Origin: Bacteroidales bacterium
GTDB lineage: Bacteria > Bacteroidota > Bacteroidia > Bacteroidales > P3
Assembly (NCBI GenBank): GCA_017479385.1
Contig: JAFVCE010000017.1
Coordinates: 310,001-374,000, forward strand
Direction of reading: 5' to 3'
DNA: 64,000 nt
Shown: positions 7,926-58,395 of the stretch, one piece after another
Position numbering within the stretch: the stretch's first letter is position 1
Layout of the letters: every line of letters begins with the position of its first letter
Program-made: the position numbers and the translations under genes
The notes under the pieces: model-generated
Told to the model about the DNA's origin: nothing
Databases searched by the model: none
What the model saw: only the letters and a program-made list of their open reading frames with translations

Positions 7926-8016
7926 GTAACTACCTGATATTCAGGGATGCGGTCGTATTAAAGAGGGGTTAAGGTCGTATTGAGGTCGAACAACGCTTGA
8001 TATTCAGCCAGTTAAC
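7926..8016 (-). repeat. Dispersed intergenic repeat, copy A
   Basis: Read on the minus strand, this 91-base segment begins GTTAACTGGCTGAATATCA, holds the shared core CGACCTCAATACGACC followed by TTAACCCCTCTTTAA, and ends ATATCAGGTAGTTAC. The two ends are imperfect inverted repeats of each other. It lies between two convergent genes and is related to copies at 28234, 37052, 43566, 52147 and 58307. Confidence 0.8.
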
Positions 8017-8125
8017 ACCCCAAAATTCCCCCTCCAAACCCCGCCCCCACAGCGATGGCTATCCCTGTTTGAAGGCTCCTTCTTATTGATAATTCGGACC
8101 GACTACGAAAGCCGTACCGAAAGTC

Positions 8126-9454
8126 TCAACTTGCTTGGTAACTCAATGAACATTGTTTTAGTATCTCTTCCAGACGGCTGTTCATTCCTGAATTATGCTG
8201 ATATTTGCGTCTTAGAATGCCATCACACCCTTTGGGAGAAATATAGAACTGCTCGTCTGGCTCTGTGTCAACAATGTCTAACATACTACTTACGGTGTAA
8301 TCATAGCAGGTATCTGAGGCATTGAGATAGCCATGCCCTTGGTCTGTAAAATCGTCTAATAGTATGATTTGGTAATTTTCCTTATCGACGAATGGCGGTA
8401 ACGCGGTCTTTGGCAGAGTGTTGTATGCTATCAACCTCTTCATTATCCAACTTATTACAGGAACTGCCCAAGAGTTTCCGGTAGCCTGATAACGATTTGT
8501 GGGCGTGCAATGTGGAAGATACGTATAGTTGTCGGGAAATCCCATTAGGCGCTCACATTCTAATGGTGTCAGTCGTCGTAGTCGCCCATTCTGCGCAAAA
8601 TACAACGAACCATTATTTGCAGCTGCATTGCCATTCCATTTCGTACCGTATGCGGCATACAAACAATCCGAATAGCAGCGAAATGCTTCAATTTTTATAT
8701 CATTGACGACCTTGCACAGCTTATTGACAACCGTTCCAGTGGTCCCCTTATCGGCAGTGCCTGTGGGAAATAGCGAGAGTTGTTGGGCTCTGTTGTCGGT
8801 AGTTTTGTACGGGTCGCTGATAATGCCGCCTTCTTCCAATAGTACCCTTTCTGGATAGAAATCCTTGCCACCACCAACTACATATATCCTTCGCCTTTGT
8901 TGTGGGACTCCAAAATATTTTGCATCGAGAACTCGCCATGCAATATTTCTGTCTTTTCCATAGACCACACCTGCACTTTTCCATTTTTCCACAATCAGAG
9001 GCTCCTCTAACCCAGCCAATCCTGCAATAAAACAACCAAAAGCGTTACTTTTATCGGTCAACACACCCTCAACATTTTCCCAAAAGAATATTGCTCGTTC
9101 TTTACCATACTCTAATCTTATTGAGTCAATCTCGTTTAATATGTCGATATATTTCAGTGTAAGCTGTCCACGTTTGTCATCTAATCCGTTTTTCCACCCT
9201 GCTAAAGAAAACGCTTGACATGGGGTTCCTCCGCATAGGAGGTCTGGAACATCTGCAACCCTACTATTAATCAACTCTGGTATGTTGTTCATATCGCCAA
9301 GATTTGGCGAGTCTGGGTATTTTTCTGCCAAAAAGCGCGAAGGGTATTCTGCAATTTCAGACACCCAGATTGGCATCACCCCCAATGGCTTTAAGACAAA
9401 ACTTGCTGCCTCAATGCCAGAACAGACACTTCCGAAAGTTTTTATATCAGTCAT
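8126..9454 (-). CDS. DNA (cytosine-5-)-methyltransferase of a restriction-modification system
   Basis: 442 residues, a complete C5-cytosine methyltransferase that uses S-adenosylmethionine. Visible motifs: I (FGSVCSGIEAASFV, residues 7-20), IV with the catalytic cysteine C79 (GGTPCQAFSLAG), VI (FFWENVEGV, 124-131), VIII (QQRRRIYVVG, 185-194), and IX-X near the C-terminus (LTPLECERLMGFPDNY, then YQATGNSWAVPVI). The target-recognition region falls between VIII and IX, and the site it recognises cannot be read from sequence. Its start overlaps the stop of the endonuclease candidate by four bases, so the two are co-translated. Base composition is clearly more AT-rich than dnaG or dxs, which suggests horizontal acquisition. 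Confidence 0.93.
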   Translation of the reverse strand: MTDIKTFGSVCSGIEAASFVLKPLGVMPIWVSEIAEYPSRFLAEKYPDSPNLGDMNNIPELINSRVADVPDLLCGGTPCQAFSLAGWKNGLDDKRGQLTLKYIDILNEIDSIRLEYGKERAIFFWENVEGVLTDKSNAFGCFIAGLAGLEEPLIVEKWKSAGVVYGKDRNIAWRVLDAKYFGVPQQRRRIYVVGGGKDFYPERVLLEEGGIISDPYKTTDNRAQQLSLFPTGTADKGTTGTVVNKLCKVVNDIKIEAFRCYSDCLYAAYGTKWNGNAAANNGSLYFAQNGRLRRLTPLECERLMGFPDNYTYLPHCTPTNRYQATGNSWAVPVISWIMKRLIAYNTLPKTALPPFVDKENYQIILLDDFTDQGHGYLNASDTCYDYTVSSMLDIVDTEPDEQFYISPKGCDGILRRKYQHNSGMNSRLEEILKQCSLSYQAS

Positions 9455-10365
9455 AATCCATTTTGTTTGAGTGCATTGTTCAACTGGTTACGCCATTCCT
9501 CAATATCATACCATGGGCAGCCTTCGCACCCCTTCTCGGCCTCTTTTCCTGTGGTAGGAATATTTTTGTCCCACAGATTGGTTCCCTTATAAAAGTAGTC
9601 TATTCCATAGATAGTGCCTCTAACACCTTCTTGAAAGCATTTTCTACATATTTCTCTTTTTTGCTGATTTCTTTGGTTGTCTAGCAGTTGGAACTTCTTT
9701 ATTATTTCGTCGTCGGTCATATTAATTGAGTTTTCGCCCTTGGTCTCTTCGTTCCATCTAACTTCTGAAAACTTATGGTCTGGTATCAATGATTTTTTTG
9801 CTGTTGCTCTTGCCTCAAAAGCATTTCTCTCATTAAGGAGCCTTATTACTCGCGCCTTGAACTGTGCAGAGAATGTTTCATAACTCATTTCTGTATGTAA
9901 AGGTATGGGTAGAAGGATTCTATTGTAACCTTTCGTGCCATCAAGTCTTGGGACAGAAGCTACCGTGTAACCTGCATCCTTGATATCTTGTATTCTTCGA
10001 GCCGGATTTGGATTTGCCGGAAAACGTTCAAACTCCTCTTTGAACGACAATAAGATGTTGAAAAAAGCAGACGTTACTGGTCCACTAATTAACCCTCTTG
10101 CAATCTCGGTTTGACGCCATTCTCTCATTGCCTCTTTGGTAAAGTACTGCTTTAAAGATTTTAAATACCCTGCTAAAGCTTGCTCTACTACTATGTTAAG
10201 TCCAGCCCTTCTATCAACATATGGCACATATGTGTCCCATTCAAAACCATTGTCTTGAACGAACTTGGTCTTTACATAAACCTCACTTGCCTTATTGTTT
10301 TCTACTATTTCCGATACAATAATACCTGTATCTCCTAATAGCACCTGAAGAGCGCCTAAATCCAT
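9451..10365 (-). CDS. HNH-like type II restriction endonuclease candidate
   Basis: 304 residues, not matched to a named endonuclease. A possible ββα-metal (HNH-type) core is visible in the C-terminal half: D196-H197 in LIPDHKFSEVRW, then N230, N233 and K236 in FQLLDNQRNQQKR. It is followed by a four-cysteine cluster, C240/C243 (ICRKC) and C280/C283 (CEGCPWYD), which could bind structural zinc. The N-terminal ~180 residues are unassigned and may recognise DNA. The gene sits between an XRE controller and a C5-methyltransferase in the order controller, endonuclease, methyltransferase, which is typical of C-protein-regulated systems. Function is inferred mainly from this context; an accessory role is the alternative. 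Confidence 0.65.
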   Translation of the reverse strand: MDLGALQVLLGDTGIIVSEIVENNKASEVYVKTKFVQDNGFEWDTYVPYVDRRAGLNIVVEQALAGYLKSLKQYFTKEAMREWRQTEIARGLISGPVTSAFFNILLSFKEEFERFPANPNPARRIQDIKDAGYTVASVPRLDGTKGYNRILLPIPLHTEMSYETFSAQFKARVIRLLNERNAFEARATAKKSLIPDHKFSEVRWNEETKGENSINMTDDEIIKKFQLLDNQRNQQKREICRKCFQEGVRGTIYGIDYFYKGTNLWDKNIPTTGKEAEKGCEGCPWYDIEEWRNQLNNALKQNGL

Positions 10366-10366
10366 T

Positions 10367-10645
10367 TCATTTCTTTTTAGATATTATTTCAACAATGTCT
10401 TTCTTGCTTATGGGATACAAAATGCCATCTAATTTTGCATATAATTCCACATCATTTTTTTCTTTGAACAACTCTGCCAACTCAATGTTTAACGTTGTCG
10501 CCATCTTTTTTAAGGTATCTAATGTTGGGGAAATATTACCACTAAGATAGTTGCTTAGATTTGACTGACTAATGCCAGACAGTGTCGCAAAATCCTTCAT
10601 TGTAATACCTCTTTGTGCAAGAATTTCCTTTAGTTTCAAATCCAT
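10367..10645 (-). CDS. XRE-family controller (C protein) of the restriction-modification island
   Basis: 92 residues with an N-terminal helix-turn-helix: MKDFATLSGISQSNLSNYLS is the core, and TLDTLKKMATTLNIEL completes the five-helix XRE fold. C-proteins are small dimeric regulators that delay endonuclease expression until the host is methylated. The gene lies one base upstream of the endonuclease candidate, so it would drive it as part of one transcript. A perfect 14-base sequence, TTATTTAAAATAAT, is present near its own promoter and again near the divergent promoter, as expected for an autoregulator. The C-terminal extension (about residues 65-92, ELYAKLDGILYPISKK) is not typical of minimal C-proteins. 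Confidence 0.8.
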   Translation of the reverse strand: MDLKLKEILAQRGITMKDFATLSGISQSNLSNYLSGNISPTLDTLKKMATTLNIELAELFKEKNDVELYAKLDGILYPISKKDIVEIISKKK

Positions 10646-10668
10646 ATTTTCTTTGATACTTTATTTTG

Positions 10669-10769
10669 CAAAGATAGTAATTTTATTTAAAATAATTATT
10701 TTTTATCACAACATTTTGCTATTTTTATTATTTTTAGTAATTTTGCAATTTAAAATTATTTAAAATAAT
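10669..10769. promoter_or_regulatory. Divergent promoters with duplicated operator-like site
   Basis: The minus-strand -7 element TATCTTTG is at 10669-10676 and the plus-strand element TAATTTTG at 10738-10745. TTATTTAAAATAAT occurs exactly twice here, at 10683-10696 (between the -7 and -33 positions of the minus promoter) and at 10756-10769 (just after the plus transcription start). The copies start 73 bases apart, close to seven helical turns. Binding by the XRE protein is inferred. Confidence 0.65.
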
Positions 10770-10775
10770 ACAAAA

Positions 10776-11087
10776 ATGAAACTATCAAAAGATATTAGAA
10801 GCCTGCTTGTTACCTTTTTAAGTAATCGAAGTGTTGTTGCCTCATGGGGTATTAGCAATATACACATTAATGAAAACAGTGTTTGCTTTACTGTTAGCGG
10901 GATGAAGCACCATGGCAGAGTATCTATAAATCGGACAGAGGGAACTGTCTATGATGTTAAAATTGGGGAGATGTTGCTCGTGTCTTTGAAAAAAGAGGAC
11001 GTGATAACCGCGATAGATAATTACATTGAACACACAGATAACTACAACGAAGACATTGCGAAATGGCTATCACAAAAAATAGGTTGA
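10776..11087 (+). CDS. Small protein of unknown function, divergent from the R-M genes
   Basis: 103 residues, soluble, with no recognised domain. The sequence alternates beta-like segments (VCFTVSG, GRVSINRTEG, VYDVKIGEML) and ends in a helical stretch (ITAIDNYIEHTDNYNEDIAKWLSQ), suggesting a compact alpha/beta fold. It has a clear Bacteroidetes promoter 31-38 bases upstream of ATG 10776 and an operator-like site in its leader shared with the XRE controller. Co-regulation suggests it belongs to the island, perhaps as an accessory or anti-restriction factor, but nothing in the sequence proves this. Its AT-rich composition matches the island, not the flanks. Confidence 0.7.
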   Translation: MKLSKDIRSLLVTFLSNRSVVASWGISNIHINENSVCFTVSGMKHHGRVSINRTEGTVYDVKIGEMLLVSLKKEDVITAIDNYIEHTDNYNEDIAKWLSQKIG

Positions 11088-11120
11088 GCGATGTTAGGGT
11101 ATCTTTCATTTGGAGAACCT

Positions 11121-13025
11121 CTACCGCGCGTTGAGCAACTTGGTTATGGTGGACACAATGTCGTCGGCGTCGTAACCGCAGTCGTGCTTTAGGCGAGCTA
11201 CGGGGCCGTGGGGCACAAACGCGTCGCCCACGCCGAGTATGGCGAAGCGAGGCAGGCGGTCGTGGTGGTGGCTCTCGAAGTATTCGAGAACCGACGAGCC
11301 GAAACCTCCGGCTTTGACGCCGTCTTCGACCGTCACTATGGCTCGATAGTTGGCCGCGGCAATGGTATCGAGTAACTGCTCGTCGAGGGGTTTGACGAAA
11401 CGCATATCGAACACCGCTGCACTGATTTGCAGTTCACTCATGAGCCTCTTGGCTGCCTCGAGGGCGTCGTTGCCACTGTGGCCTATGGACAGTATGGCCA
11501 CGTCGGTACCATCTGCAAGCTGGCGGCCACGCCCAATGGCGAGTGGGCTCATCTCATTGTGCCAGTCGGGCAGCACTCCGCAGCCGCGTGGGTAGCGTAT
11601 AACCCACGGCCCAGCGTCTGGCAGCTGGGCGGTGAACATCATATTGCGCAATTCGTGTTCGTTCATTGGGGCGGCAATGGTGAGGTTGGGCACAGGGCGC
11701 AAGGCGGCAATATCGAACACACCGTGGTGGGTTGGACCATCGTCGCCCACAATGCCAGCGCGGTCGAGACACAATACCACCGGCAACTGCTGAAGAGCCA
11801 CGTCGTGGATAACCTGGTCGAAAGCGCGTTGGGCAAACGACGAATAGATGTTGCAAAACGGCACCATGCCTTGTGCCGCGAGGCCTGCCGCAAAGGTCAC
11901 GGCGTGGGGTTCGGCAATTCCCACATCGAAAGCACGGTCGGGCATTTCGGCCATCATGATGTTGAGCGAGCAGCCTGTTGGCATGGCTGGAGTTATGCCT
12001 ACAATGCGGTTGTTGGCTTTGGCAAGTTCGACGATAGTTTGACCAAAAACATCTTGATAACGAGGCGGTTGACCATCTGCCTGGTGACTAATCTGACGGC
12101 CGGTGATGGCGTCGTAGCGTCCTGGCGCATGGTAAACCACTGGGTTGCGCTCGGCGCTGTCGAGGCCTTTGCCTTTGATTGTTATTACGTGTAACAACTT
12201 GGGACCTGGCAGGCTGCGGAGCTTGGTGAGCATTTCGACCATTTGGGCGATGTCGTGCCCATCGATGGGGCCGAAGTAGCGAATGCCGAGCGACTCGAAG
12301 AGATTGCTTCCGCCCAAGAGCGCCGTTTTGGCGGTGAAGGTGAGGCGTTGAATGAGCGAACGCGAACGATTGTGAGTGCGTGTGCCAGGGCGGACGCCGC
12401 TCAGGCGAGCCCACACCTCGTCCTTAAGGCGGTTATAGTGGGTCGAAGCGGTGAGGCGCGTGAGGTATCGGTCGAGACCGCCCACCGCTTTGTCGATAGA
12501 AATACCGTTGTCGTTGAGCACCACAAGAATGTTAGCCTTAGAGTCGCCGGCCGCATTGAGGGCTTCGAAAGCTTCGCCACCGGTCAGCGCGCCGTCGCCA
12601 ATGATGGCAATGTGTTGGCGTGTGGTGTTGCCCTGCAGTTTAGAAGCGGTGGCCATACCGAGGGCGGCCGAGATGGAGGTAGAGCTGTGTCCGGTGCCAA
12701 AAGCGTCATAAGGGCTTTCGCTGGGGCGCGGAAAGCCACTCAAGCCGCCGTAGGTGCGAATGGTGTCGAAACGGTCGCGGCGGCCGGTTATTATTTTGTG
12801 GGCATAGGACTGGTGGCCTACGTCCCAAATGAGCTTGTCGTCGGGAGTGTTAAAAACATAGTGCAGTGCCAGAGTTAGCTCAACAGTGCCGAGGCTCGAA
12901 GCAAGGTGACCAGGGTGTGTGGCAAGGGTATTGATAATGAAGTGGCGCAACTCGTCGGCCAGTGGCAAAAGGTCGCTGGGCGCAAGCTGGCGCAAGTCGT
13001 TGGGGGAGTCGATGTGGTCGAGCAT
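11121..13025 (-). CDS. dxs: 1-deoxy-D-xylulose-5-phosphate synthase
   Basis: 634 residues. Condenses pyruvate and glyceraldehyde-3-phosphate with thiamine diphosphate, the first step of the MEP isoprenoid pathway. ATG 13025 (MLDHIDSPNDLRQLAP) is chosen; the open frame runs 42 codons further but that part is proline/arginine-rich and overlaps the upstream gene. Family motifs are present: the N-terminal HPGHLASSLGTVELTLALH, the thiamine-diphosphate signature GDGALTGGEAFEALN with NDNGISID, the transketolase pyrimidine-domain segment DRAGIVGDDGPTHHGVFD, and the C-terminal VTVEDGVKAGGFGSSV. It lies 23 bases after the preceding exported-protein gene on the same strand. This start also matches the usual family length. 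Confidence 0.95.
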   Translation of the reverse strand: MLDHIDSPNDLRQLAPSDLLPLADELRHFIINTLATHPGHLASSLGTVELTLALHYVFNTPDDKLIWDVGHQSYAHKIITGRRDRFDTIRTYGGLSGFPRPSESPYDAFGTGHSSTSISAALGMATASKLQGNTTRQHIAIIGDGALTGGEAFEALNAAGDSKANILVVLNDNGISIDKAVGGLDRYLTRLTASTHYNRLKDEVWARLSGVRPGTRTHNRSRSLIQRLTFTAKTALLGGSNLFESLGIRYFGPIDGHDIAQMVEMLTKLRSLPGPKLLHVITIKGKGLDSAERNPVVYHAPGRYDAITGRQISHQADGQPPRYQDVFGQTIVELAKANNRIVGITPAMPTGCSLNIMMAEMPDRAFDVGIAEPHAVTFAAGLAAQGMVPFCNIYSSFAQRAFDQVIHDVALQQLPVVLCLDRAGIVGDDGPTHHGVFDIAALRPVPNLTIAAPMNEHELRNMMFTAQLPDAGPWVIRYPRGCGVLPDWHNEMSPLAIGRGRQLADGTDVAILSIGHSGNDALEAAKRLMSELQISAAVFDMRFVKPLDEQLLDTIAAANYRAIVTVEDGVKAGGFGSSVLEYFESHHHDRLPRFAILGVGDAFVPHGPVARLKHDCGYDADDIVSTITKLLNAR

Positions 13026-13048
13026 GGCGTAGTAGGTATAGTTCAGGT

Positions 13049-14026
13049 TTATCGGGTTGAATAGGAAGGGGCCTGCTTCTCGATTGGTTCGAATGGTTTG
13101 TTGAGGCGCTTGTCGTCGAGGCGGCCTTCGGCGCCGCGGCGAAGTTCCCACTTGCCACCAACAAAGGCGTAGGCCATTTCCTCGCCCGAGGGTACGTAGT
13201 ATTGATATAAGCCCTCCATACCCTCGACTTGCGGGGCGACCTCGTCGAACATTATCATCTTTTCTTTGTGCTCGTGCACCACCTCGACGGTACGATAGCG
13301 GTTCTTGGAGCCTTTGACCTTGACGCGTTTGCGCTCAACTTCGCGCACAAACTGCTCCTCGAAGCGGAGGTTGACCATAACGCTGTTAGAATATTCGAGC
13401 ACCACACGGCGCAGGTTGCGCTCGCGGCGAAAGAGGGCTTGGCCAAACTGGGGTTTGCCGGTCGATGGCTTGAACCACACGGGCTCGATGACCTTACGCT
13501 GGGTGATGTTGTCAACGCCGTTGTACCCCAAGAGTGTATAGTAGGTTTTGCCATCGTTCGAAGTCTGAATAATTTCTTGATAGACTGCGCCGTACCAATT
13601 AGAGGGGTCGACTATGGTTTCCTCGCGGTTGATGAGTTCGTCGGATTTGTCGTTCAGCTCGGCAAACTCCACCTTGCCAGTGGCAGCGTTGAGGTACTGG
13701 ATGAAGCCAAAACACTCCCACTCGCCGTTGTCGCGCAAGACGGGCCAAGTAATAAGGCGAACCTTCTTGTCGGGCGAAGTGAGCACCGACACCTTGTCGC
13801 CAAAATTCCACTTCCAACTCATAGAACCCTCTGTGTTCAGAGCTTCGGCCATGAGTTGCACGGCCTGCTCGCTGGCCAAGTAACGTTGGTTGTCGGTAGG
13901 GGCATAGCGCGCCGTACCAAAAAGGGTATCGAGCTGGGCGGCGAAGTCGGCCATTCGGGCTTTATCCTGCGCGTTGATACACAGGGCAATAAATCCAAAG
14001 ACGAGTGCAAGAACAAACTTCTTCAT
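13049..14026 (-). CDS. Exported protein of unknown function
   Basis: 325 residues. ATG 14026 is chosen because it starts a Sec signal (MKKFVLALVFGFIALCINAQ) with a likely cleavage after INA; an earlier in-frame ATG at 14068 adds only 14 atypical residues. The mature part has a helical N-terminal segment (ARMADFAAQLDTLFG) and then beta-rich text with repeated Trp and Tyr (SWKWNFGDK, GEWECFGFIQYL, YYTLLGYNGVD), followed by a basic loop. No lipobox is seen, so it should be periplasmic. Family not recognised, although similar periplasmic proteins are frequent in Bacteroidales. It is followed 23 bases later by dxs, likely in one transcript. Confidence 0.75.
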   Translation of the reverse strand: MKKFVLALVFGFIALCINAQDKARMADFAAQLDTLFGTARYAPTDNQRYLASEQAVQLMAEALNTEGSMSWKWNFGDKVSVLTSPDKKVRLITWPVLRDNGEWECFGFIQYLNAATGKVEFAELNDKSDELINREETIVDPSNWYGAVYQEIIQTSNDGKTYYTLLGYNGVDNITQRKVIEPVWFKPSTGKPQFGQALFRRERNLRRVVLEYSNSVMVNLRFEEQFVREVERKRVKVKGSKNRYRTVEVVHEHKEKMIMFDEVAPQVEGMEGLYQYYVPSGEEMAYAFVGGKWELRRGAEGRLDDKRLNKPFEPIEKQAPSYSTR

Positions 14027-27485: not shown

Positions 27486-28114
27486 TTCGCAGCGTGGTTG
27501 TGCGCGACGTGTTCGGGGTGTTTTGCTACTTCTGCATAGACGGCGAGTCGCGCCGCGGCTTCGTTGTCGACCCCGGCGCCGAGGCCTCGCGACTGCTGGC
27601 ACTCATCGAGCGCAACGGCTGGACGATAGAACGCATACTGCTCACCCACGGCCACTTCGACCACACGGGGGCAGTATGCGAACTCTCGCAGCGGCTGGGC
27701 ATTCCATACAGCATTCATCGCAATGGGCAGCAATATTTGCTCGACACACAACTAAACCTCAGCGCCTACTGCCAGCGCAACGTGGTGTTGCGCGACGCCG
27801 AGTTTTTCGACGACGGAGCCCTCTTCGTAGCTGGCCAAATGCGCCTGCAGGCCATACACACACCAGGCCACACGCCCGACAGCGTGGTCTACCTCTGTCC
27901 GGCAGAACAGGCAGCCCTGGTGGGCGACACCATTTTCCGTGGCTCGCCCGGCACAACCGAATATGAGGGTGGCGACCCAGTGGCCCTGCGCGAAAGCTTG
28001 TCGAAAATACTCTCGCTGCCAGCCGCCACACGCCTCTTCCCAGGCCACTCTTCGCCCACCACCGTGGCCACAGAGCGACCGCTCTACGGAGCTCAACTTA
28101 CCCCCAAACGGTAG
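27482..28114 (+). CDS. Metallo-beta-lactamase-fold hydrolase (glyoxalase II-like)
   Basis: 210 residues from ATG 27482. This ATGA overlaps the previous stop, and an in-frame ATG at 27458 inside the upstream gene is less likely. The binuclear metal site is visible: THGHFDHTG (HxHxDH), the second histidine in HTPGHTPDS, the bridging aspartate in GDTIFRGSPG and a final histidine in LFPGHSSPTTV. This matches the YcbL/GloB-like hydroxyacylglutathione-hydrolase subgroup, cytosolic thioester hydrolases. The substrate is unknown; Bacteroidales usually lack glutathione, so another thiol ester is likely. Coupling to the DsbA-like gene suggests a thiol-stress module. Confidence 0.88.
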   Translation: MIRSVVVRDVFGVFCYFCIDGESRRGFVVDPGAEASRLLALIERNGWTIERILLTHGHFDHTGAVCELSQRLGIPYSIHRNGQQYLLDTQLNLSAYCQRNVVLRDAEFFDDGALFVAGQMRLQAIHTPGHTPDSVVYLCPAEQAALVGDTIFRGSPGTTEYEGGDPVALRESLSKILSLPAATRLFPGHSSPTTVATERPLYGAQLTPKR

Positions 28115-28185
28115 TACGAACTCATCGACGTTTGCTAAAAACAACTATCCCTCGACCACCACAAACGGCAACTCGGCGCTGCCAA

Positions 28186-28226
28186 CTGGCCGACCTTGCC
28201 CCCCCAGAGGGCTCAAGGTCGGCCAG
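28186..28226. terminator. Hairpin between convergent genes
   Basis: CTGGCCGACCTTG (28186-28198) and CAAGGTCGGCCAG (28214-28226) form a perfect 13-bp stem with a 15-base loop. It sits just after the metallo-hydrolase gene and before repeat copy B, so it could end transcripts from either side. Confidence 0.6.
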
Positions 28227-28233
28227 AAATCGA

Positions 28234-28326
28234 TAGCTAATCGCCTCAGTATCAAGCGTTGTTCGACCTCAATACGACCCTAACCCCTCTTTAACCCCTC
28301 CTCAACCCTGTTTTTCAGGTAGTTAC
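28234..28326 (+). repeat. Dispersed intergenic repeat, copy B
   Basis: It starts near AGCTAATCGCCTCAGTATCA, has the core CGACCTCAATACGACC and TAACCCCTCTTTAACCCC, and ends TTTTTCAGGTAGTTAC. It lies between the convergent metallo-hydrolase and GH25 genes. The minus strand reads NYLKNRVEEGLKRG then stop across its right half. Confidence 0.85.
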
Positions 28327-28362
28327 AAAAACAAATATAACCTTTTTTTTTGAGTGGTGCTG

Positions 28363-29025
28363 CTATTGCTTTTTGGGCTTGGGAAGCTTGATGTCGGCCA
28401 ACGAATGGTTGCGGTTGAAACGGCTGAAGTCGACCTTGCCTTTTATGCCCGGGCAGCGGCCGCTCTCTGTGTATTGCCACAGGGTGAAGCGTGTGCTGGG
28501 GTAGGAACGATAGTTGGCGATGAAGATATGGTATTTGGCGTATTTTTTGCCGCTGAAGTGGGTTTTGTAGAGCCGTTCGCTGGTGTAAATCATGGGCTTG
28601 ACCCCGTATTCGTTCTCCATGAGTTCGAGCAGTTTGTCGACGCGCGCCATATAGAGTTTGTCGCAGTGGTGCCCCTCTATATCGAGCACCGGAATGAGGT
28701 CTTGTTGTTTTTTATTGACAACCGACTTGAAGTTGCCAAACTGCTGGTAGGCAGTGGTTTTGCTGCTATAGAGGTGGTAGCTGCCCACCAGCAGGCCGGC
28801 TTCTTTGGCTTTCTTGACGTTGGTGGCGTACTGAGGGTCGCGGATTGAGGTACCCTCGGTGGCTTTGATGTAGACAAAGCGTATGGTAGAATCTTTGGCC
28901 ACCTTGGTCCAGTTGATGGTTTCTTGGTAGCGCGAGACATCAATTCCGCGCACTTTTTGTGCGTGGAGCGGCAGCTGGACGAGTAGCAGAGCCGCAAATG
29001 TCAGACTACATAGAAATTTCTTCAC
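28363..29025 (-). CDS. Glycoside hydrolase family 25 muramidase
   Basis: 220 residues with a Sec signal (KKFLCSLTFAALLLVQLPLHA). The GH25 barrel is recognisable: GIDVSRYQ with D29, VYIKATEGTS, PVLDIEG carrying the catalytic acid pair near 118-121, and FTLWQYTESG near the end. Such enzymes cut the MurNAc-GlcNAc bond of peptidoglycan; this one would act in the periplasm or outside, possibly in cell-wall turnover. Its start overlaps the last 20 bases of RNase G, so it is translated from the same mRNA. It ends with a short basic tail (LPKPKKQ). Confidence 0.9.
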   Translation of the reverse strand: MKKFLCSLTFAALLLVQLPLHAQKVRGIDVSRYQETINWTKVAKDSTIRFVYIKATEGTSIRDPQYATNVKKAKEAGLLVGSYHLYSSKTTAYQQFGNFKSVVNKKQQDLIPVLDIEGHHCDKLYMARVDKLLELMENEYGVKPMIYTSERLYKTHFSGKKYAKYHIFIANYRSYPSTRFTLWQYTESGRCPGIKGKVDFSRFNRNHSLADIKLPKPKKQ

Positions 29026-36832: not shown

Positions 36833-37020
36833 TGAGGCGTTTTCTGCCGACTGGAAAAGTAATAAATCAACCGTTCAACCACAAGCGCCAAACACCAACC
36901 AGCGGTAAACCTACGGCAGAAATCGAGACAAAGTCGAACAACGCTCAACAAAATTTTGGGGGAGCGCCCCACAAAATTAGTTCGCAAAAGCCCCTAAATA
37001 CCAATTACAAACTACGATAG

Positions 37021-37040
37021 AAGCCCCTAACATCGGGCTT
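37021..37040 (+). terminator. Terminator after der
   Basis: AAGCCC (37021-37026) and GGGCTT (37035-37040) form a short stem followed by TTATCG. It is weak, but sits 190 bases after der and just before repeat copy C. Confidence 0.5.
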
Positions 37041-37051
37041 TTATCGTCATA

Positions 37052-37140
37052 TAACTATCTGAATATCAAGGCCTGCTCGACCTCAATACGACCCTAACCC
37101 CTCCTTAACACGACCCCAACCCTGATAATCAAGCAATTAC
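37052..37140 (+). repeat. Dispersed intergenic repeat, copy C
   Basis: It begins TAACTATCTGAATATCAAGG, has the core CGACCTCAATACGACC with TAACCCCTCCTTAAC, and ends CCTGATAATCAAGCAATTAC. The ends are inverted repeats. This is the only clear copy between two genes on the same strand. Confidence 0.85.
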
Positions 37141-43565: not shown

Positions 43566-43620
43566 GCACTACTCGATGTTAATACGACCTTAACCCGACC
43601 TTAACCCGACCCAAGAGTGA
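43566..43620 (+). repeat. Dispersed intergenic repeat, degenerate copy D
   Basis: Only the core is clear: CTACTCGATGTTAATACGAC followed by CTTAACCCGACCTTAACCCG. Terminal inverted repeats are not clear. A run of about ten G residues lies nearby at 43497-43506. It lies between the convergent porin and mntP genes. Confidence 0.55.
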
Positions 43621-52035: not shown

Positions 52036-52146
52036 CAACTATTTTTTGATTTGGCGAAAAAAAGTTTTGTAGGCTACCTGTTTTGTGGTAAAAAACGGGT
52101 AAATATCGGGCTGGCAAGGGGTAAATATTGGGTAAAAATCGGGGTT

Positions 52147-52234
52147 TATATGTCTGAATATCAATGCTTATTCGACCTCAATACGACCTTAACCCCTCTT
52201 TAACCCCTCCTCAACCATGTTTTCCAGGTAGTTA
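52147..52234 (+). repeat. Dispersed intergenic repeat, copy E
   Basis: It begins TATATGTCTGAATATCAATG, has the core CGACCTCAATACGACC with TTAACCCCTCTTTAACCCC, and ends TTTCCAGGTAGTTA. It lies in the long gap between the hydG unit and the four-helix-bundle gene, both on the minus strand. Confidence 0.85.
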
Positions 52235-52261
52235 TGAGTGGGTTGCTGGGGGTAAGACAAT

Positions 52262-52538: not shown

Positions 52539-53021
52539 TTAGAAGTCGGTGTTTATCGAGTCGAGCGGGTCGTAGGCTTCGGCGTTAGTGACGTCGCGAG
52601 TTTCGTAGGTCTGCGAATCCTCGTCGCGACGGCGCGAGCCGCGTTGCAGCGAGATGATGAGGGCGCCAATCATGCGAGTCAGCTCCATGAGGTACTCGCG
52701 CGACTGGTTGGTTTGTTCTTCGTCGAACAGGCCACGGGCCGAGGCCAAAGTGGTGTAGACTATGCACTCGCGGATTGCGGTTTTTGCAATTTTCAGATAG
52801 TGGTCGAACTGGTTCTTGTTGCGAGCAGAGCCTTCGGCAATGTTGAGGGCGATGTCGAATGCCGAGGTAGAGAAAGTTTTGATAAGGCTCTTGTCGGCAG
52901 CGGTTTGTGGGGTGCCGATATTGGTTAGGAGCCATTGGGCGTAGTCGGTTGCTTTGGCGTATACACGGAGGTCTTCGAAGCGGAAGAAGCTCATAGTGCG
53001 GTCTTGTTGCTGGTTGTCCAT
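52539..53021 (-). CDS. Four-helix-bundle protein (23S rRNA intervening-sequence protein family)
   Basis: 160 residues, all helical. RFEDLRVYAKATDYAQWLL and FDIALNIAEGSARNKNQFDH are diagnostic of the TIGR02436 four-helix-bundle family, named after proteins encoded inside 23S rRNA intervening sequences but mostly free-standing, as here. Function is unproven; some bind nucleic acids. Its C-terminal extension after about residue 130 is acidic and disordered (DSQTYETRDVTNAEAYD). It is a single gene upstream of a long gap with a repeat. Homologues are common and patchily distributed in Bacteroidetes, which suggests mobility. Confidence 0.88.
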   Translation of the reverse strand: MDNQQQDRTMSFFRFEDLRVYAKATDYAQWLLTNIGTPQTAADKSLIKTFSTSAFDIALNIAEGSARNKNQFDHYLKIAKTAIRECIVYTTLASARGLFDEEQTNQSREYLMELTRMIGALIISLQRGSRRRDEDSQTYETRDVTNAEAYDPLDSINTDF

Positions 53022-53098
53022 AGGATTTGTAATAATATGCTTATTGATGTAAAGTTAATTCTTTTCGGTGTTTAAGGATTCGGTTGGCACCCACAGCT

Positions 53099-53257: not shown

Positions 53258-54241
53258 TTAGCCTATTTCGGCGAAATATTTCATAAACTGAGTGCGCATC
53301 CAGAGCGATGTATTGTCGTTCGGCTTGACGGCCAGTTTGCCTCTGAATTGGTCAATCGAGGTGTAGCCCTTGTCAGCCATCCACTGCTTGAGGCCATCAT
53401 TGAGGGTGCGCATATGGTCTAAACCATTGATGTATAGGCTCGAAACCACCTGCACAGTACCAGCGCCGGCGAGGAGCATTTTGACCACATCGATTGGGGT
53501 GAAGACGCCCGTAGAGGCCGAAATGTCGCAACGTGTGGCTTTGCTCAAAATGGCAACCCAGCGCAGGGTGTTGTACTTCTCGTCGGGGTTGGAGAGTTTG
53601 GGTGCGTTGACCACTTCGAGCTTGTCGACATCAATGTCCATCTGCATCGACTTGTTGAAGATGGTCAAGCCTTGAATACCCATCCACGAGAGCTGTTGCA
53701 TCGATTTGGCCATATCGGTAAAATAGGGGCCGACCTTGATGCTAATGGGTATCGAAACCGACTTGCGAAGCGTGTTGATGATGTTGGTGTAGGTGCGTTC
53801 TACGTCGTCGGCCGAAGTCGAAGTCTCGGTCGCCATGATGGCCATATTCAACTCTATGGCGTCGCAGCCGGCGTCGACAAACTTACTGGCATAGGTGAGC
53901 CAATTCTCGTACGAGAAGCAGTTGATGCTGCCAATAACGGGTATGCTGAGGCGCTTTTTGGCTTCGCTCACAAGCTTGAAATACTTGGCAAGCGAGTCGT
54001 CGGCCACGTGCTGAGCAATATATTCATACGAAATGCCGTAGTTATCCGTGTCCACGACGGCCTGGGTGTTGCGCCTAATGTCGTGCATTATTTGCTCTTC
54101 GAAAATGGATTTCAGAATCACAGCGCCGGCACCGGCCTGTTCGAGTTTTTCAAGTTTGTCGACATCGGCGGTGAGTCCGCAACTGCCGGCAATGATAGGG
54201 CTATTGAGTTGTAAGCCGAGATATTTAGTTGTAGTATCCAT
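53258..54241 (-). CDS. Dihydroorotate-dehydrogenase-like protein
   Basis: 327 residues. An FMN-binding TIM barrel of the DHOD family: MDTTTKYLGLQLNSPIIAGS at the N-terminus, GAGAVILKSIFEEQI, DAIELNMAI, SIKVGPYFTDM and GTVQVVSSLYINGLDHM. ATG 54241 is chosen because it starts the conserved barrel strand. The text matches the Bacteroidetes DHOD-like paralogue, which is distinct from PyrD; its real substrate is uncertain. It stands alone with its own promoter and no pyrK. Cytoplasmic. Confidence 0.88.
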   Translation of the reverse strand: MDTTTKYLGLQLNSPIIAGSCGLTADVDKLEKLEQAGAGAVILKSIFEEQIMHDIRRNTQAVVDTDNYGISYEYIAQHVADDSLAKYFKLVSEAKKRLSIPVIGSINCFSYENWLTYASKFVDAGCDAIELNMAIMATETSTSADDVERTYTNIINTLRKSVSIPISIKVGPYFTDMAKSMQQLSWMGIQGLTIFNKSMQMDIDVDKLEVVNAPKLSNPDEKYNTLRWVAILSKATRCDISASTGVFTPIDVVKMLLAGAGTVQVVSSLYINGLDHMRTLNDGLKQWMADKGYTSIDQFRGKLAVKPNDNTSLWMRTQFMKYFAEIG

Positions 54242-54578
54242 TCTGTTCTTAATACTATAATAATCCAATGCAAAGATATGTAAAAAAAATTGATATTCGG
54301 ACTTTTTTTTGAAAAATATTTTTTTCTCAACAATTTCTCGCTGATTATCAATAATTTATGAAAAATAATTCAACCAGCAACTTCAACCTTTTTGCTTGCT
54401 CTATGGTCCGGAGCGGAGGCCTTTTTGAGCACTTTTCGAGCAGGTTACACATTAAATATAAAGTTATTTACATCCACGGTTGAAAAAAAATTTTGGTTCA
54501 TATATGTGTATTTCGAAAAAAAATACTAACTTTGCAAAGTTTTTTAACATAGAAAAATAGAGCAAAACACATAACCCC
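54242..54578. other. AT-rich divergent intergenic region with two promoters
   Basis: No gene seen. The minus-strand element TATCTTTG is at 54271-54278 (for the DHOD-like gene) and the plus-strand element TAACTTTG at 54527-54534 (for the TPR gene). The middle is mostly A/T. Confidence 0.65.
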
Positions 54579-55250
54579 ATGAAAGACCAGAAAGAAGAAA
54601 CAGCACTGGAAACCAACGACTTACTAACCAAAGGCCAGTTGTTTTTCGAGAAAAACGGCAAACTCATCATCATCATCGTATGCGCCATTTTGGTGATATT
54701 GGCCCTCATTTTTGGGTTGCGCAAGTGGTACTTCCAACCCCGCGACGTGCAAGCCTCCGAAGAAATGTTCGCCGCCGAGCAATGGTTCGGGCAAGGCAAC
54801 TACGAGTTGGCCCTCAACGGCAACGACAACCACCTCGGTTTTCTCGGCATGATAGACGAATATGGCAACACCAAAGCCGGCAACCTCGCCCACTACTATG
54901 CCGGTGTGAGCCAGCTGCGCCTCGGCAACTACGACGAAGCCATCAGCCAACTCAAGAAATATAAAGCCACCGACCTCTTCACCAAGCCCATGGCCCTCAT
55001 GTGCCAAGCCGACGCCCAAATGGAGGCTGGCCGCACCCAAGAGGCTATCGACCTCTACCTCAAAGCCGCCAAAGCAAGCGACAACTTTGTGAGCGCCCCC
55101 ACCGCACTCTTCAAAGCCGGCATGGGCTACATCATCCTCGGCAACGGGGCCAAAGCCATCGACTGCTTCAAACAAATCAAGGCCAACTACCCCGAAAGTT
55201 CCGAGTGGAGCGAAGTCGACAAATACATGGCCTACGCCGAAAATATGTAA
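54579..55250 (+). CDS. Membrane-anchored TPR protein (YfgM-like)
   Basis: 223 residues. One transmembrane helix near the N-terminus (LIIIIVCAILVILALIFGL, about residues 29-47) anchors a periplasmic domain with tetratricopeptide repeats (LAHYYAGVSQLRLGNYDEAI, ALFKAGMGYIILGNGAKAID). The layout matches the YfgM / TPR_21-type proteins that associate with chaperones or BamB in the envelope. There is no catalytic motif. It has a TAACTTTG promoter and is followed by a good terminator, so it is a single-gene unit. Confidence 0.85.
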   Translation: MKDQKEETALETNDLLTKGQLFFEKNGKLIIIIVCAILVILALIFGLRKWYFQPRDVQASEEMFAAEQWFGQGNYELALNGNDNHLGFLGMIDEYGNTKAGNLAHYYAGVSQLRLGNYDEAISQLKKYKATDLFTKPMALMCQADAQMEAGRTQEAIDLYLKAAKASDNFVSAPTALFKAGMGYIILGNGAKAIDCFKQIKANYPESSEWSEVDKYMAYAENM

Positions 55251-55279
55251 ACCGTCACATTCCATAACAACAATAACGC

Positions 55280-55315
55280 GAAGCGGCTCACAAAATTGTG
55301 CGCCGCTTCCTTTTT
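55280..55315 (+). terminator. Rho-independent terminator of the TPR gene
   Basis: GAAGCGGC (55280-55287) pairs with GCCGCTTC (55302-55309), with an inner CACAA/TTGTG helix, followed by CTTTTTA. Confidence 0.85.
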
Positions 55316-55366
55316 ATATATAATTTAACATTATATATTGTGGATTGAATTTTGTTAAAAAAAAGC

Positions 55367-55396
55367 AAGGCGGAAACAAAATAAAGTTTCCGCCTT
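55367..55396 (-). terminator. Rho-independent terminator of the ElbB-like gene
   Basis: AAGGCGGAAAC (55367-55377) and GTTTCCGCCTT (55386-55396) form an 11-bp stem. On the minus strand it is followed by GCTTTTTTTT, so it ends transcripts from the ElbB-like side. Confidence 0.85.
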
Positions 55397-55420
55397 TGCG
55401 TTATTGCTTTTGCTATGGTT

Positions 55421-56113
55421 CTATTGCAACATGGTTTGGAGCGACGCAACGAGGTTTTCGGCTCCGTCGAAGATTTCGCTTATGCGGGTTGCCGCCATAT
55501 AGGCTGGGGTCGTGATGACACGATGGTCGTCGTCGACACAGACGGCCGTGGGGGCGCACTCTTCGACTATGCACCCCAACTCGAGGGCCACTTTGGCAGC
55601 TGGTATGCTGCGGTCTTGCCCAAGGGTGATGTGAATGCCGTATCGGCCCAGGACCTTGGCCAGGACCATGGGTGCAATACACATGGCCACCACAGGTTTG
55701 TGGGCGCGGTAGGTTTCGAGAATGGCGTCGGCAACACTGTCTATCACTGTCATGCGTGGGCCATCGAATGCGAAGGTGGAGAGGTTGCGAGCAGCACCCA
55801 TGCCGCCGGGCAAAGCCAACGCGTCGTAGTCGGCAGGGTTATACTGCTCGATTGGCAAGAGGTTGCCACGAGCAATGCGAGCGCTCTCTACAAAGATGTC
55901 GCGCTGTTCGACGTCGACAATAGAGCCTTCTTCGGCTTCATCGTCAGCGTCGGCCATTTCGACATGAGGCACCACTTCGAAGTAGCCTTCGGGCGCGAAG
56001 CATTGGTACTGCCAACCGCGGCGGTCGATGGCGAGCATGAGCGAGAGGCTTTCTTGGAGTTCGGAGCCGTCGCGATTGCCGCAGCCGGAGAGTATGATGG
56101 CTATTTTTTTCAT
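55421..56113 (-). CDS. ElbB-like DJ-1/PfpI-family protein (isoprenoid-associated glyoxalase)
   Basis: 230 residues. IAIILSGCGNRDGSELQESL at the N-terminus is characteristic of ElbB. The nucleophile-elbow cysteine is C145 (VVAMCIAPMVLAKV), and ALALPGGMGAARNLSTFA is the oxyanion loop. ElbB homologues are described as glyoxalase III-like; their physiological role is not settled. No signal peptide. It lies downstream of the Cys/Met PLP-enzyme gene across a 123-base gap full of palindromes and ends at a good terminator. Confidence 0.9.
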   Translation of the reverse strand: MKKIAIILSGCGNRDGSELQESLSLMLAIDRRGWQYQCFAPEGYFEVVPHVEMADADDEAEEGSIVDVEQRDIFVESARIARGNLLPIEQYNPADYDALALPGGMGAARNLSTFAFDGPRMTVIDSVADAILETYRAHKPVVAMCIAPMVLAKVLGRYGIHITLGQDRSIPAAKVALELGCIVEECAPTAVCVDDDHRVITTPAYMAATRISEIFDGAENLVASLQTMLQ

Positions 56114-56150
56114 GGGTTGGATGTTTTTGGGGAGGGTTTAGAGCGACCTA

Positions 56151-56222
56151 TATTTCCCAATTTTCGGGAATATCTGGAAATTCCGAGGTTCCCGGAAACT
56201 CCGAATGGGTCGGAGTTTCCGG
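56151..56222. repeat. Cluster of nested palindromes
   Basis: CCGGAAACTCCGA (56192-56204) pairs with TCGGAGTTTCCGG (56210-56222), a perfect 13-bp stem with a five-base loop. Just upstream, TTTCCC (56152-56157) pairs with GGGAA (56166-56170), and GGAAATTCC is itself a near-palindrome. Most of the gap is made of GGAA/TTCC arms. It may end transcription of the PLP-enzyme gene but has no T-tract. Confidence 0.6.
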
Positions 56223-56236
56223 TTTCTCGGTATTTT

Positions 56237-57442
56237 TTAGCGGCGGCTTTCTTCGACGCTTTCTTTGATGAGTTGGAAGGTTGCTTCGATGTCGTTGTCG
56301 AGACCCATCGAGAAGCGGATGAGGCCTTCGCTCATGCCCATTTCTTTCTGAATGTCTTCGGGGACTTCGCTACTGGTGCTCTTACCGCTGTTGCTGAAGA
56401 GGGTCTTGAAATAACCGAGGCTGACGGCGAGGTAGCCAACACCTTTCTGTTGCATGATTTCCATGATTTTGCTGGCGCTTTCGGCAGTACCCATGTCGAT
56501 ACTAATCATGCCACCAAAGCCGTAGCCTTCGTTCATCATGGAGCAGAAGAGCTGGTAATCGGGGTGCTCGGGGAGGCCGGGGTAGTTGTATTTGAAGCCC
56601 ACCTCTTTGAAGCGTTTGGCAAGGTACATTGCGTTCTCGCCGTGCTTTTTCATACGGATGTGGAGGGTGTGGAGGTTTTTGAGGATGGAGGCGCTGCGCA
56701 AGGGGTCGAGCACGGGGCCGAGGAGCATGCAGGTGCCGTTATTGACGTCGATGAGGCTGCCAATATACTCGGCCGAGCCGCAGATGGCGCCAGCCACGCA
56801 GTCGTTGGTGCCGTTGATGTATTTGGTCATGCTGTAGACGGTTACGTCGGCGCCCAGACGGCAGGGGTTGAAAATCATGGGGGTGAAGGTGTTGTCTACA
56901 ATGAGCTTGGCGCCGGCGGCGTGGGCCATCTTGCTCAGTTCGGGCACGTTGGCAATGCGCAGCAGGGGGTTGTTCATGGTCTCGGTGTAGACGACTTTGG
57001 TGTTGGGGTGGGCGGCAAGGGCTTTCTTAACGGCGTCGAGGTCCTGCATATTGACGAAGGTGCAGTCGACGTTGAACTTTTTGAGGTAGTTGGCCATGAA
57101 GGCGAAGGTGCCACCATAGGTTGTCATGCTGGCCACGATGTGGTCGCCAGCCTTCACTTCGTGAAGGAGGGCGCAGGTGATGGCGGCCAGACCGCTACCG
57201 GTAACCCAAGCGGCCTCGGTGCCTTCCATAGCGGCCAGGGCTTTGCAGAGTGCAAGGTTGGAGGGGTTCCAGTGGCGGCTGTAGAGGAAGTAGCCTTCGG
57301 TTTCGCCGTGGAAAGTCTCGGTCATCAGATGAGCCTCGGGGAAGATGAAGGTGGCGCTGTCGCAAATTGCGGGGTTCACACCACGGTTGGCGTCGCTTCC
57401 GTCGAGACGCTGGATAGCTGTTGCAGGATCGAATTTGTTCAT
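56237..57442 (-). CDS. Cys/Met metabolism PLP-dependent enzyme (methionine gamma-lyase/cystathionine lyase type)
   Basis: 401 residues, the usual length. The fold-type I PLP lysine is in YSMTKYINGTNDCVAGAI. GSGLAAITCALLHEVKAGDH, YTETMNNPLLRIANV and LIVDNTFTPMIFNPCRLGAD match the Cys/Met-metabolism family. Members cleave or form C-S bonds; whether this one is a methionine gamma-lyase, a cystathionine lyase or a homocysteine synthase cannot be settled. It is divergent from the methyltransferase gene, with facing promoters only 13 bases apart. Confidence 0.88.
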   Translation of the reverse strand: MNKFDPATAIQRLDGSDANRGVNPAICDSATFIFPEAHLMTETFHGETEGYFLYSRHWNPSNLALCKALAAMEGTEAAWVTGSGLAAITCALLHEVKAGDHIVASMTTYGGTFAFMANYLKKFNVDCTFVNMQDLDAVKKALAAHPNTKVVYTETMNNPLLRIANVPELSKMAHAAGAKLIVDNTFTPMIFNPCRLGADVTVYSMTKYINGTNDCVAGAICGSAEYIGSLIDVNNGTCMLLGPVLDPLRSASILKNLHTLHIRMKKHGENAMYLAKRFKEVGFKYNYPGLPEHPDYQLFCSMMNEGYGFGGMISIDMGTAESASKIMEIMQQKGVGYLAVSLGYFKTLFSNSGKSTSSEVPEDIQKEMGMSEGLIRFSMGLDNDIEATFQLIKESVEESRR

Positions 57443-57489
57443 TGTTAGGTAGTTTTATTTGGTTCTATATTTTTTTAAATAAGATTTTG

Positions 57490-57518
57490 CAAAATTACGA
57501 TTTTTTTTTGTATTTTTG
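57490..57518. promoter_or_regulatory. Divergent promoters, the plus one nearly leaderless
   Basis: The minus-strand element TAATTTTG is at 57490-57497 and the plus-strand element TATTTTTG at 57511-57518. The plus element ends four bases before ATG 57523, so the mRNA would begin at or next to the start codon. Confidence 0.6.
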
Positions 57519-57522
57519 CAAA

Positions 57523-58230
57523 ATGAATGGAAAATTATTTTTGTTTCCAGTAACCATTGGCGCCGAGGAGGTTACGCGTTCGCTGCCAGCAGCGAATGGC
57601 GAGTTGCTTGACCAATGTAGCGTTTTTGTGGTCGAAGAGTTGCGTTCGGCGCGCCGTTTTTTGCGTCGGGCGGGCTATTCTCGCCCTATTGACGAGACCA
57701 CTTTCTACCTGCTCAACGAGCATACTGCCGAGGCCGAGACGGCCCACTATTTGGACCCCATTTTCGATGGGCAGAACGTTGGCCTGCTGAGCGAGGCAGG
57801 CCTGCCCTGCGTGGCCGACCCAGGGGCTATGATAACTCGCCAGGCTCAGCGTTTGGGCATAGAGGTTGTGCCGCTGGTTGGCCCCTCGTCGCTGATGTTG
57901 GCCCTGATGGCCAGCGGCTTGAACGGGCAGAATTTTGCCTTTGTGGGCTACCTGCCGGTCGACCGCTCTGAGCGAGCCCACGCTTTGCGCCGGCTCGAGG
58001 AGCGCGCTTTGCGCGAAGGGCAGACGCAGATTTTTATCGAGGCTCCCTACCGCAACAACCAAATGCTCGAAGCCATCTGCCAAACGTTGCGGCCGGCAAC
58101 CCAGGTTTGCGTGGCTACCGACATCACGATGCCGACCCAGAGCATTCGCACCATGAGCGTGGCCCAGTGGGCACGCCTGCGGGTTGAGGTGAATTTGCAT
58201 AAGCGGAACACTGTGTTCCTCGTCGGATGA
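57523..58230 (+). CDS. SAM-dependent tetrapyrrole-methylase-family methyltransferase (RsmI-like, short form)
   Basis: 235 residues. ATG 57523 (MNGKLFLFPVTIGAEEVTRS) is chosen; the frame is open upstream but crosses the promoter. NVGLLSEAGLPCVADPGAM and VVPLVGPSSLMLALMASGLN are the family's SAM-binding blocks, and FIEAPYRNNQMLEAICQTL is typical of the RsmI group, which 2'-O-methylates C1402 of 16S rRNA. It is shorter than RsmI (about 280) and lacks the last domain; Bacteroidetes often carry this second paralogue, whose target is uncertain. No SD sequence is present. Confidence 0.85.
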   Translation: MNGKLFLFPVTIGAEEVTRSLPAANGELLDQCSVFVVEELRSARRFLRRAGYSRPIDETTFYLLNEHTAEAETAHYLDPIFDGQNVGLLSEAGLPCVADPGAMITRQAQRLGIEVVPLVGPSSLMLALMASGLNGQNFAFVGYLPVDRSERAHALRRLEERALREGQTQIFIEAPYRNNQMLEAICQTLRPATQVCVATDITMPTQSIRTMSVAQWARLRVEVNLHKRNTVFLVG

Positions 58231-58252
58231 AATTTAAGTGACAGGCCTCTCT

Positions 58253-58284
58253 ACCCCACTCTGCCATCGGGCAGCGGATGGGGT
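58253..58284. terminator. Hairpin after the methyltransferase gene
   Basis: ACCCCA (58253-58258) pairs with TGGGGT (58279-58284), with an inner CTGCC/GGCAG helix (58261-58274). No T-tract directly follows, but GGTATTTTT lies a few bases on. Confidence 0.5.
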
Positions 58285-58306
58285 GAGGAGGGTATTTTTG
58301 GGGGTG

Positions 58307-58395
58307 CTAAGTAGCTGAATATCAAGCGTTGTTCGACCTCAATACGACCTTAACCCCTCTTTAACCCCTCCTCACCCCTGTTTTTCAGCGAGTTA
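58307..58395 (+). repeat. Dispersed intergenic repeat, copy F
   Basis: It begins CTAAGTAGCTGAATATCAAG, has the core CGACCTCAATACGACC and TTAACCCCTCTTTAACCCC, and ends TTTTTCAGCGAGTTAG. It overlaps the last 46 bases of the HAD gene, which reads the minus strand into it and stops at 58350-58352. Confidence 0.85.

Follow-up and report, generated by a model that had tools for sequence, protein, structure and literature searches.

An intergenic repeat with ends set in 11-bp steps and a phase-locked flank, dispersed through a Bacteroidales genome

What is a repeat of about 90 base pairs (bp) doing when it recurs in the intergenic spaces of a bacterial genome, chiefly between converging genes? The question is raised by a 64,000-bp stretch of DNA from a Bacteroidales bacterium (GenBank assembly GCA_017479385.1, contig JAFVCE010000017.1, positions 310,001 to 374,000; hereafter the window), in which an original prediction, made from the sequence, had described six related segments and had left it open whether they are relatives of repetitive extragenic palindromic (REP) sequences or miniature inverted-repeat transposable elements (MITEs), or else bidirectional terminators. 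All six segments were found; five are full length, and the sixth, at 43566-43620, is an array without the ends. The 17-bp core of the repeat, TCGACCTCAATACGACC, has 212 matches with up to two mismatches (113 forward and 99 reverse) in the 2,277,571 bases and 24 contigs of the window's own genome (G000), that of a gut or rumen bacterium, and the reversed pattern has none. Most of these core matches belong to full elements. In the window the core has six matches with up to three mismatches, five of them exact and the sixth (43573-43589) with three, against a mean of 0.09 in shuffled windows, and none of 100 shuffles attained six. The total copy number, the 11-bp step in which the element is built, and a phase-locked flank that extends beyond it had not been noticed in the original prediction.

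We surveyed 464 kb of the genome, comprising 280 kb and the window on contig C5 and 120 kb on contig C1. A profile search of this survey gave 29 full-length copies (>60 bits). It also gave, at E <0.001, 22 matches of lesser length, most of which are arrays built from similar 11-bp units. The core itself occurred 47 times (28, 7 and 12 times with 0, 1 and 2 mismatches). The set used below numbers 79 copies, all distinct and scoring 55 bits or more, taken from the survey, from 12 loci of the core search and from 40 fetched copies. Because the fetched copies were selected for an exact core, core identity was judged from the survey copies alone, and 27 of the 29 full-length ones carry the exact core. 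Two survey copies (G000:C5:25107-25202 and 130017-130114) have a core variant, CAACACGACC, with TTTTTATCGATAAA-like flanks on both sides, and perhaps form a subfamily whose shared unit is longer.

Elsewhere the core is at background level, with 0-2 matches in each of 36 congeners and 24 genomes of the same order and 0-4 for the reversed controls. The sampled congeners are not close relatives, since their primases are at most 68% identical to that of the window species over the full length (up to 76% over part). In a wider scan of contigs, where other species are possible, the only other named record with the core among the matches listed was JAFVBF010000042.1, a contig of a Bacteroidales metagenome-assembled genome from roe-deer rumen. 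It matches one G000 locus (L217) at 99.6% identity across 3298 bp, and on this sequence identity it is of the same species as the window genome; the contig is 4 kb long, holds the sole core match of its assembly and may be mis-binned. Viral contigs held no exact match to a 22-base pattern of the element, and plasmids and phages gave no blastn match to it at E 0.01. Rfam recognized only a tRNA above threshold in the window and no family for the element; at 28100-28450 it returned nothing credible, just four chance-level matches (E 0.28-0.97).

The consensus can be written in steps of 11 bp as TAACTGCCTGA ATATCAAGCCT TGTTCGACCTC AATACGACCYT AACCCCTCYTT AACMCSWCYYC AACCCTGAWWA TCAGGCAGTTA, which makes 88 bp. 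The distance from end to end is 88 bp in 59 of the 79 copies, 99 in 8, 98 in 2 and 87 in 1, and the other 9 have a weak right end; in the 99-bp class the additional 11 bp do not appear, by eye, to be a further copy of a unit. A search of the survey for the two ends only, ignoring the core (both strands, distances of 40-140 bp), produced 41 pairs at 88 bp and 4 at 99 bp, where 0.054 are expected per distance; the remaining five lay at 52 (two), 62, 63 and 118 bp. All 41 pairs at 88 bp, a number in which many elements are counted twice, once per strand, contain the core or its variant AACACGACC. A segment of about 35 bp around the core (-3 to +31) is near-invariant, with one Y position, most positions above 90% and a few at 70-90%, and the ends are more variable than this segment. 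The imperfect inverted repeats at the two ends, TAACTGCCTGA and TCAGGCAGTTA, had been predicted and are real as sequence. They do not co-vary: the 58 copies of the 88-bp class have 712 complementary pairs, against 733±10 when right ends are permuted among copies, and a hairpin of the two ends is ruled out by this test. The right end likewise has no conserved hairpin-forming palindrome (207 of 348 pairs in the 58 copies, 220 when permuted).

The left flank differs between copies yet holds an 11-bp pattern in the phase of the core, namely T/A, C, G, G, G/C, T, T/A, A, A, A, G/A. Over the 79 copies the chi2 of this phase locking is 1338 at -110 to -27 and 650 at -110 to -60, against 47±15 and 37±11 when each copy is given a random phase. 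The pattern is base-specific (G reaches 0.64 at one phase) and its period is 11.04 bp (bootstrap 10.98-11.09). In the intergenic part of the flank (76 copies) the signal has a z of 58 near the element, 12 at -159 to -126 and about 2 at -192 to -159, and phase with the core is maintained for about 130 bp. The arm is present whether the left gene is directed toward the element, as in 50 convergent copies (z 52) and 11 copies with both neighbours on the same strand (z 13.5), or away from it, as in 14 copies with both neighbours on the opposite strand (z 8.7). A matrix of the arm, trained on half the copies, found 27 stretches above 22 bits in the survey and 5 in the reversed control; 18 of the 27 are next to full copies and 5 next to partial arrays, and of the 4 that have neither beside them 3 are in genes.

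A phased arm beside a fixed centre recalls two systems in which a protein organizes DNA. The motif of E. coli gyrase has a 36-bp centre and two 47-bp arms with G/C phased at 10.75 bp, and cleavage is found preferentially downstream of operons with high transcription (PMC6379681). If the element were a strong gyrase site, its core of about 35 bp, its phased G/C-A/T arm and its convergent placement would correspond to that layout, and to the helically phased G/C arms and the location downstream of transcription units of strong sites in general (PMC6379681, PMC12393610). However, the correspondence concerns sequence pattern only, and in that pattern the element departs from the motif: its period is 11.04 and not 10.75 bp, it has a strong arm on one side only, its base-specific pattern goes beyond mere G/C content, and its near-invariant 35 bp are much stricter than the degenerate gyrase motif. 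Furthermore, the attraction of gyrase downstream of E. coli operons is said not to be hard-wired in sequence (PMC6379681), and two of the congener families described below favour divergent spaces. We regard a gyrase site as distinctly unlikely. The other system is the parC centromere of plasmid R1, whose tandem 11-bp direct repeats are bound by ParR; at least two repeats are required, protein is bound repeat by repeat, and the DNA is wrapped around it (PMC9426499). That centromere is a single plasmid locus adjoining parM, whereas the element has about 200 chromosomal core sites. ParR and gyrase show, as analogues only, that such an architecture exists. The general 10-11-bp periodicity of bacterial genomes shares the spacing of about 11 bp; it is a genome-wide dinucleotide bias (PMC4132750, PMC7537859), whereas the element is discrete and has a strict core and a fixed phase.

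Placement was determined with genes called by our own codon-usage caller, which missed one methylase gene (8126-9454). Of the 79 copies 76 could be placed, and the other three, which had no neighbour, were dropped. Fifty lie between convergent genes, 14 have both neighbours opposite, 11 have both on the same strand and one is divergent. At survey junctions of at least 100 bp, a full copy is found at 20 of 30 convergent junctions and at 9 of the remaining 129 (Fisher 1.2e-11); the 31 divergent ones among the latter have none. The prediction of a new dispersed intergenic family, often between convergent genes, was thus borne out by the genome-wide core matches, by the lack of an Rfam family and by this occupancy. 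In tandem spaces 11 copies are on the same strand and 14 on the opposite one; the lack of a strand preference points to DNA rather than RNA as what is read. At the base level, where only lag values were used as the period fit was swamped by codon periodicity, the lag-11 measure is +5.9 standard deviations (sd) in convergent spaces of G000 and +1.3 in pooled controls. Among 190 junctions of G000, 45 are adjacencies conserved with congeners, none of them at an element, and hence they offer no empty site to set beside an occupied one.

Convergent placement would also suit a transcription terminator. A bidirectional one had been proposed; it could be intrinsic, or it could depend on Rho, which would then load on the C-rich array. 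The regular spacing of a C-rich, G-poor strand suits the latter, and a Rho gene is present. However, terminator-like hairpins lie inside the element in just 2 of 61 readings from the upstream gene and 2 of 64 from the downstream gene, and those between gene and element (21/61 and 18/64) are no rarer than those that follow genes elsewhere (24/87 in tandem and 7/20 in convergent spaces; shuffled baseline 7/87 and 3/20). The ends do not co-vary, and no strand preference appears either in G000 or in 13 genomes of the genus pooled (18 same, 14 opposite, 2 ambiguous). The intrinsic form was not upheld by the hairpin counts, and Rho loading, attractive for an array with an 11-nt step, is not borne out by the tandem strand counts. 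One congener, G004, has 12 tandem copies on the same strand and 4 on the opposite (strands set against contexts by hand), and a Rho reading may hold for that genome. As an account of the element, termination seems to us very unlikely.

Another possibility is a selfish MITE- or REP-like miniature element, spread by an unknown enzyme and persisting chiefly in convergent spaces, the places in which it is least harmful. Several observations suit this explanation: near-identical cores recur at many unrelated loci, the family was not detected in the congeners that were searched, the ends are imperfect inverted copies of each other, and the 31 divergent junctions are empty. There is also a precedent in Bacteroidales, the BrickBuilt MITE of Porphyromonas gingivalis, the nearest relative in kind that we found in the order: it too is intergenic and dispersed, with a tandem repeat in a short element with inverted ends (PMC4596501). 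Compared by description, BrickBuilt differs in its 23-nt unit, its 19 copies and its inverted ends near those of ISPg1 and ISPg9; putative target duplications accompany three of its four copies with both ends, and in the part of the report available we found no helical quantisation described (PMC4596501). In our element, by contrast, 70 copies show no excess of target-site duplication (k = 2, 3, 4, 5, 6 and 8, offsets -4 to +4), the ends diverge more than the core, the phase-locked array runs on beyond the ends, and the length goes in 11-bp steps. We searched four transposase families, Y1_Tnp, OrfB_IS605, rve and DDE_Tnp_1, and none has a match in the genome, each being present in 5-9 of 14 control genomes. 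Y1_Tnp (PF01797), the family of the REP-associated tyrosine transposase (RAYT) whose presence had been suggested as a check, occurs in 5 of the 14, and a repeat family could outlive its RAYT. Ends of IS200/IS605 or REPIN type, with their GTAG and TTAC motifs, find no support in this genome, which has no Y1 or OrfB gene. REP, BIME and REPIN families are high-copy, species-specific and extragenic and often lie at gene ends. The element shares these properties and is unlike them in that no RAYT was found, its ends do not co-vary and its core is an 11-bp array. Of the proposed kinship with REP or MITE elements, therefore, the terminal inverted repeats stand and most of the other tests failed; we consider a selfish origin rather unlikely. 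A neutral minisatellite, in which slippage yields 11-bp arrays that diverge without function, would agree with the tandem arrays of several periods (7, 11) in the genus. Slippage, however, would not fix the ends at 88 or 99 bp or keep 35 bp of core near-invariant at dozens of loci, and it leaves unexplained the phase locking of diverged flanks and the occupancy of convergent junctions. We find this extremely unlikely.

The 11-bp step is found throughout the genus. Recurrence of intergenic 5-mers at lag 11 is 2.0-7.2 times that at the median lag in 13 of 13 genomes (G000 and 12 sampled congeners), and 0.3-1.6 times, with an excess in none, in nine genomes from other families of the order; for six of these nine the intergenic sample amounts to just 1-5 kb. 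In 6 of the 13, lag 11 is exceeded by lag 7 or lag 21. The 11-bp units vary, being CTACCAGATAC in G004, CTCATCTCTTA in G073, GTTCTTCAGTA in G022, TGTACGGTATA in G078 and CCAACTCCGTA-like in several. Dedicated searches, each in the family's own genome only, gave 94 matches in G004, 242 in G022, where each element is listed one to four times, and 50 in G078, where a palindrome usually counts twice; controls gave none. An end motif like TAACTGCCTGATACTAAG (up to two mismatches) has 17 matches in the 12 congener samples, against 0-2 per genome for reversed-motif controls, and 8 of the 17 precede 11-bp arrays (four in G009, one each in G021, G035, G070 and G073); as sequence similarity this is suggestive only of a shared end motif. 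Of 29 placed loci in G004, 10 are convergent, 16 tandem and 3 divergent (1 of 30 could not be placed). The families of G022 and G078 are near-perfect palindromes, and those of G000 and G004 are not. Because sequences, junction preference and palindromy differ among congeners, the common property in the genus is the 11-bp register together with intergenic placement, not one structure. In G078 (loci L287-L316, for example L289 near 1500) the palindromes are dispersed, about 100 bp long and have 11-bp periodic arms; in G022 (L257-L286) the palindromic family has GTTCTTCAGTA units with degenerate 11-bp arrays on either side. A further congener, G002, has long tandem arrays (L111 16003-16511, L113 and L115), with a unit of about 26-27 bp containing GGTTCGCTTCGCTTAAAAGGTTGAA, CACTCAT heptamers and arrays of about 250 bp of 11-bp CACTCC.

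We tentatively prefer, at a little under an even chance, to read the repeat of G000 as a protein-binding site in double-stranded DNA, built in helical register, on which a putative protein would nucleate and extend turn by turn. The quantised spacing of the ends, the fixed phase in unlike flanks and the indifference to which strand is transcribed are as expected from a protein that reads one face of the double helix. Such a sequence-specific protein would nucleate at the core, whose roughly 35 bp are near-invariant, and at both end motifs, and a filament would extend leftward from the core, one unit per 11 bp, over degenerate 11-mers of the form T-C-G-G/A-S-Y-W-A-A-A-R. The complex, mainly between converging transcription units, may act as an insulator or topological buffer that separates the units and their positive supercoils. 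We infer the protein, the growth of the filament and the insulating or topological role; the last is suggested by convergent placement, and in the G000 species only.

Several results weigh against this protein-binding reading. No binding protein was identified, the right flank is weakly phased (chi2 224 vs 30), and an exact integer unit could also stem from tandem duplication. Curved DNA is a weak candidate: the curvature predicted for the arm from wedge parameters barely exceeds that of other intergenic DNA, which is nearly as curved. The divergent spaces of G000, which held no full copy in the survey, have a lag-11 value of +3.0 sd. In G022, 7 of 9 placed copies are divergent (7 of 27 junctions in the sample), and in G078, 10 of 15 (8 of 29 junctions); these copies come from 11 and 16 loci picked by hand from 30 listed each, one count per element, of which 2 and 1 could not be placed. 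As both families are mostly divergent, a role at convergent junctions does not extend to the genus as a whole. The arms of G078 seem, by eye, matched within copies though copies differ, which would favour pairing there.

A wider proposal, possible although doubtful, is that a genus of gut and rumen Bacteroidales marks its operon boundaries with helically phased landmarks, convergent in one species and mainly divergent in others. Their species-specific, fast-evolving recognition sequence would presumably be followed by a polymerising DNA-binding protein that co-evolves with it, or by a topoisomerase that has been altered, the whole making an unrecognised system of insulation or supercoil management. 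Dispersed intergenic repeats, tandem units and helical phasing are already known as separate pieces. In the literature searched, with partial coverage, there was no description of the element, of ends spaced at 11-bp multiples beside a phase-locked arm, or of a genus with intergenic 11-bp arrays in all sampled species and with own units in several. We know of no bacterium reported to have a dedicated, helically phased sequence that marks where converging genes meet, and this literature, within that coverage, holds none. If a protein reads these sites, the genus would be a natural setting in which to study what keeps converging transcription, supercoiling and chromosome structure apart, and why a recognition sequence shifts by species while the 11-bp step persists. 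Even for a selfish element, a length in helix-turn steps was not found described for the repeat families compared.

The five full elements in the window are each 88 bp (8 x 11). The first, at 7927-8014 on the minus strand (core 7973-7989), is flanked by dnaG (+) and a cytosine methylase gene (-); the second, at 28238-28325 on the plus strand (core 28263-28279), by a metallo-beta-lactamase-fold gene (+) and a GH25 gene (-). The others are also on the plus strand: 37052-37139 (core 37077-37093) lies 3' of an EngA-type GTPase gene (+), the identity of the next gene being uncertain; 52147-52234 (core 52172-52188) is in a tandem space with both neighbours on the minus strand; and 58308-58395 has its core at 58333-58349. 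The array-only relative at 43566-43620 (+), which has Porin_10 (+) and Mntp (-) genes as neighbours, consists of the 11-bp units TTAATACGACC TTAACCCGACC TTAACCCGACC. According to open reading frames (ORFs) and Pfam, the copies at 7927, 28238, 43566 and 58308 are convergent, in agreement with the four of six that had been claimed, and the assignment at 37052 depends on the choice of ORF. The left arms, whose coordinates derive from the average over the 79 copies (76 for arm reach), would span 8016-8125 (-; about -27 to -136 from the core), 28115-28236 (+), 36945-37050 (+), 52040-52145 (+) and 58231-58306 (+). The last begins at the stop of the upstream gene, and in the arm at 52040-52145 the 11-bp units GGGTAAATATT GGGTAAAAATC can be seen by eye.

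Some neighbouring features deserve mention. Elsewhere on contig C5, a called gene contains a 33-bp tandem repeat (G000:C5:123119-123430; L062 3119-3430) in which one 14-mer occurs seven times. The C5-cytosine DNA methylase gene at 8126-9454 (-) escaped a codon-usage caller trained on this very genome and is possibly a recent acquisition. A gene for a 23S rRNA-intervening-sequence protein (PF05635), at 52539-53021, adjoins a copy of the element. Finally, the HAD-hydrolase ORF at 58350-58991 (-) has its stop and last codons inside the element (58350-58395), so that the C-terminus of the protein is encoded by the repeat.

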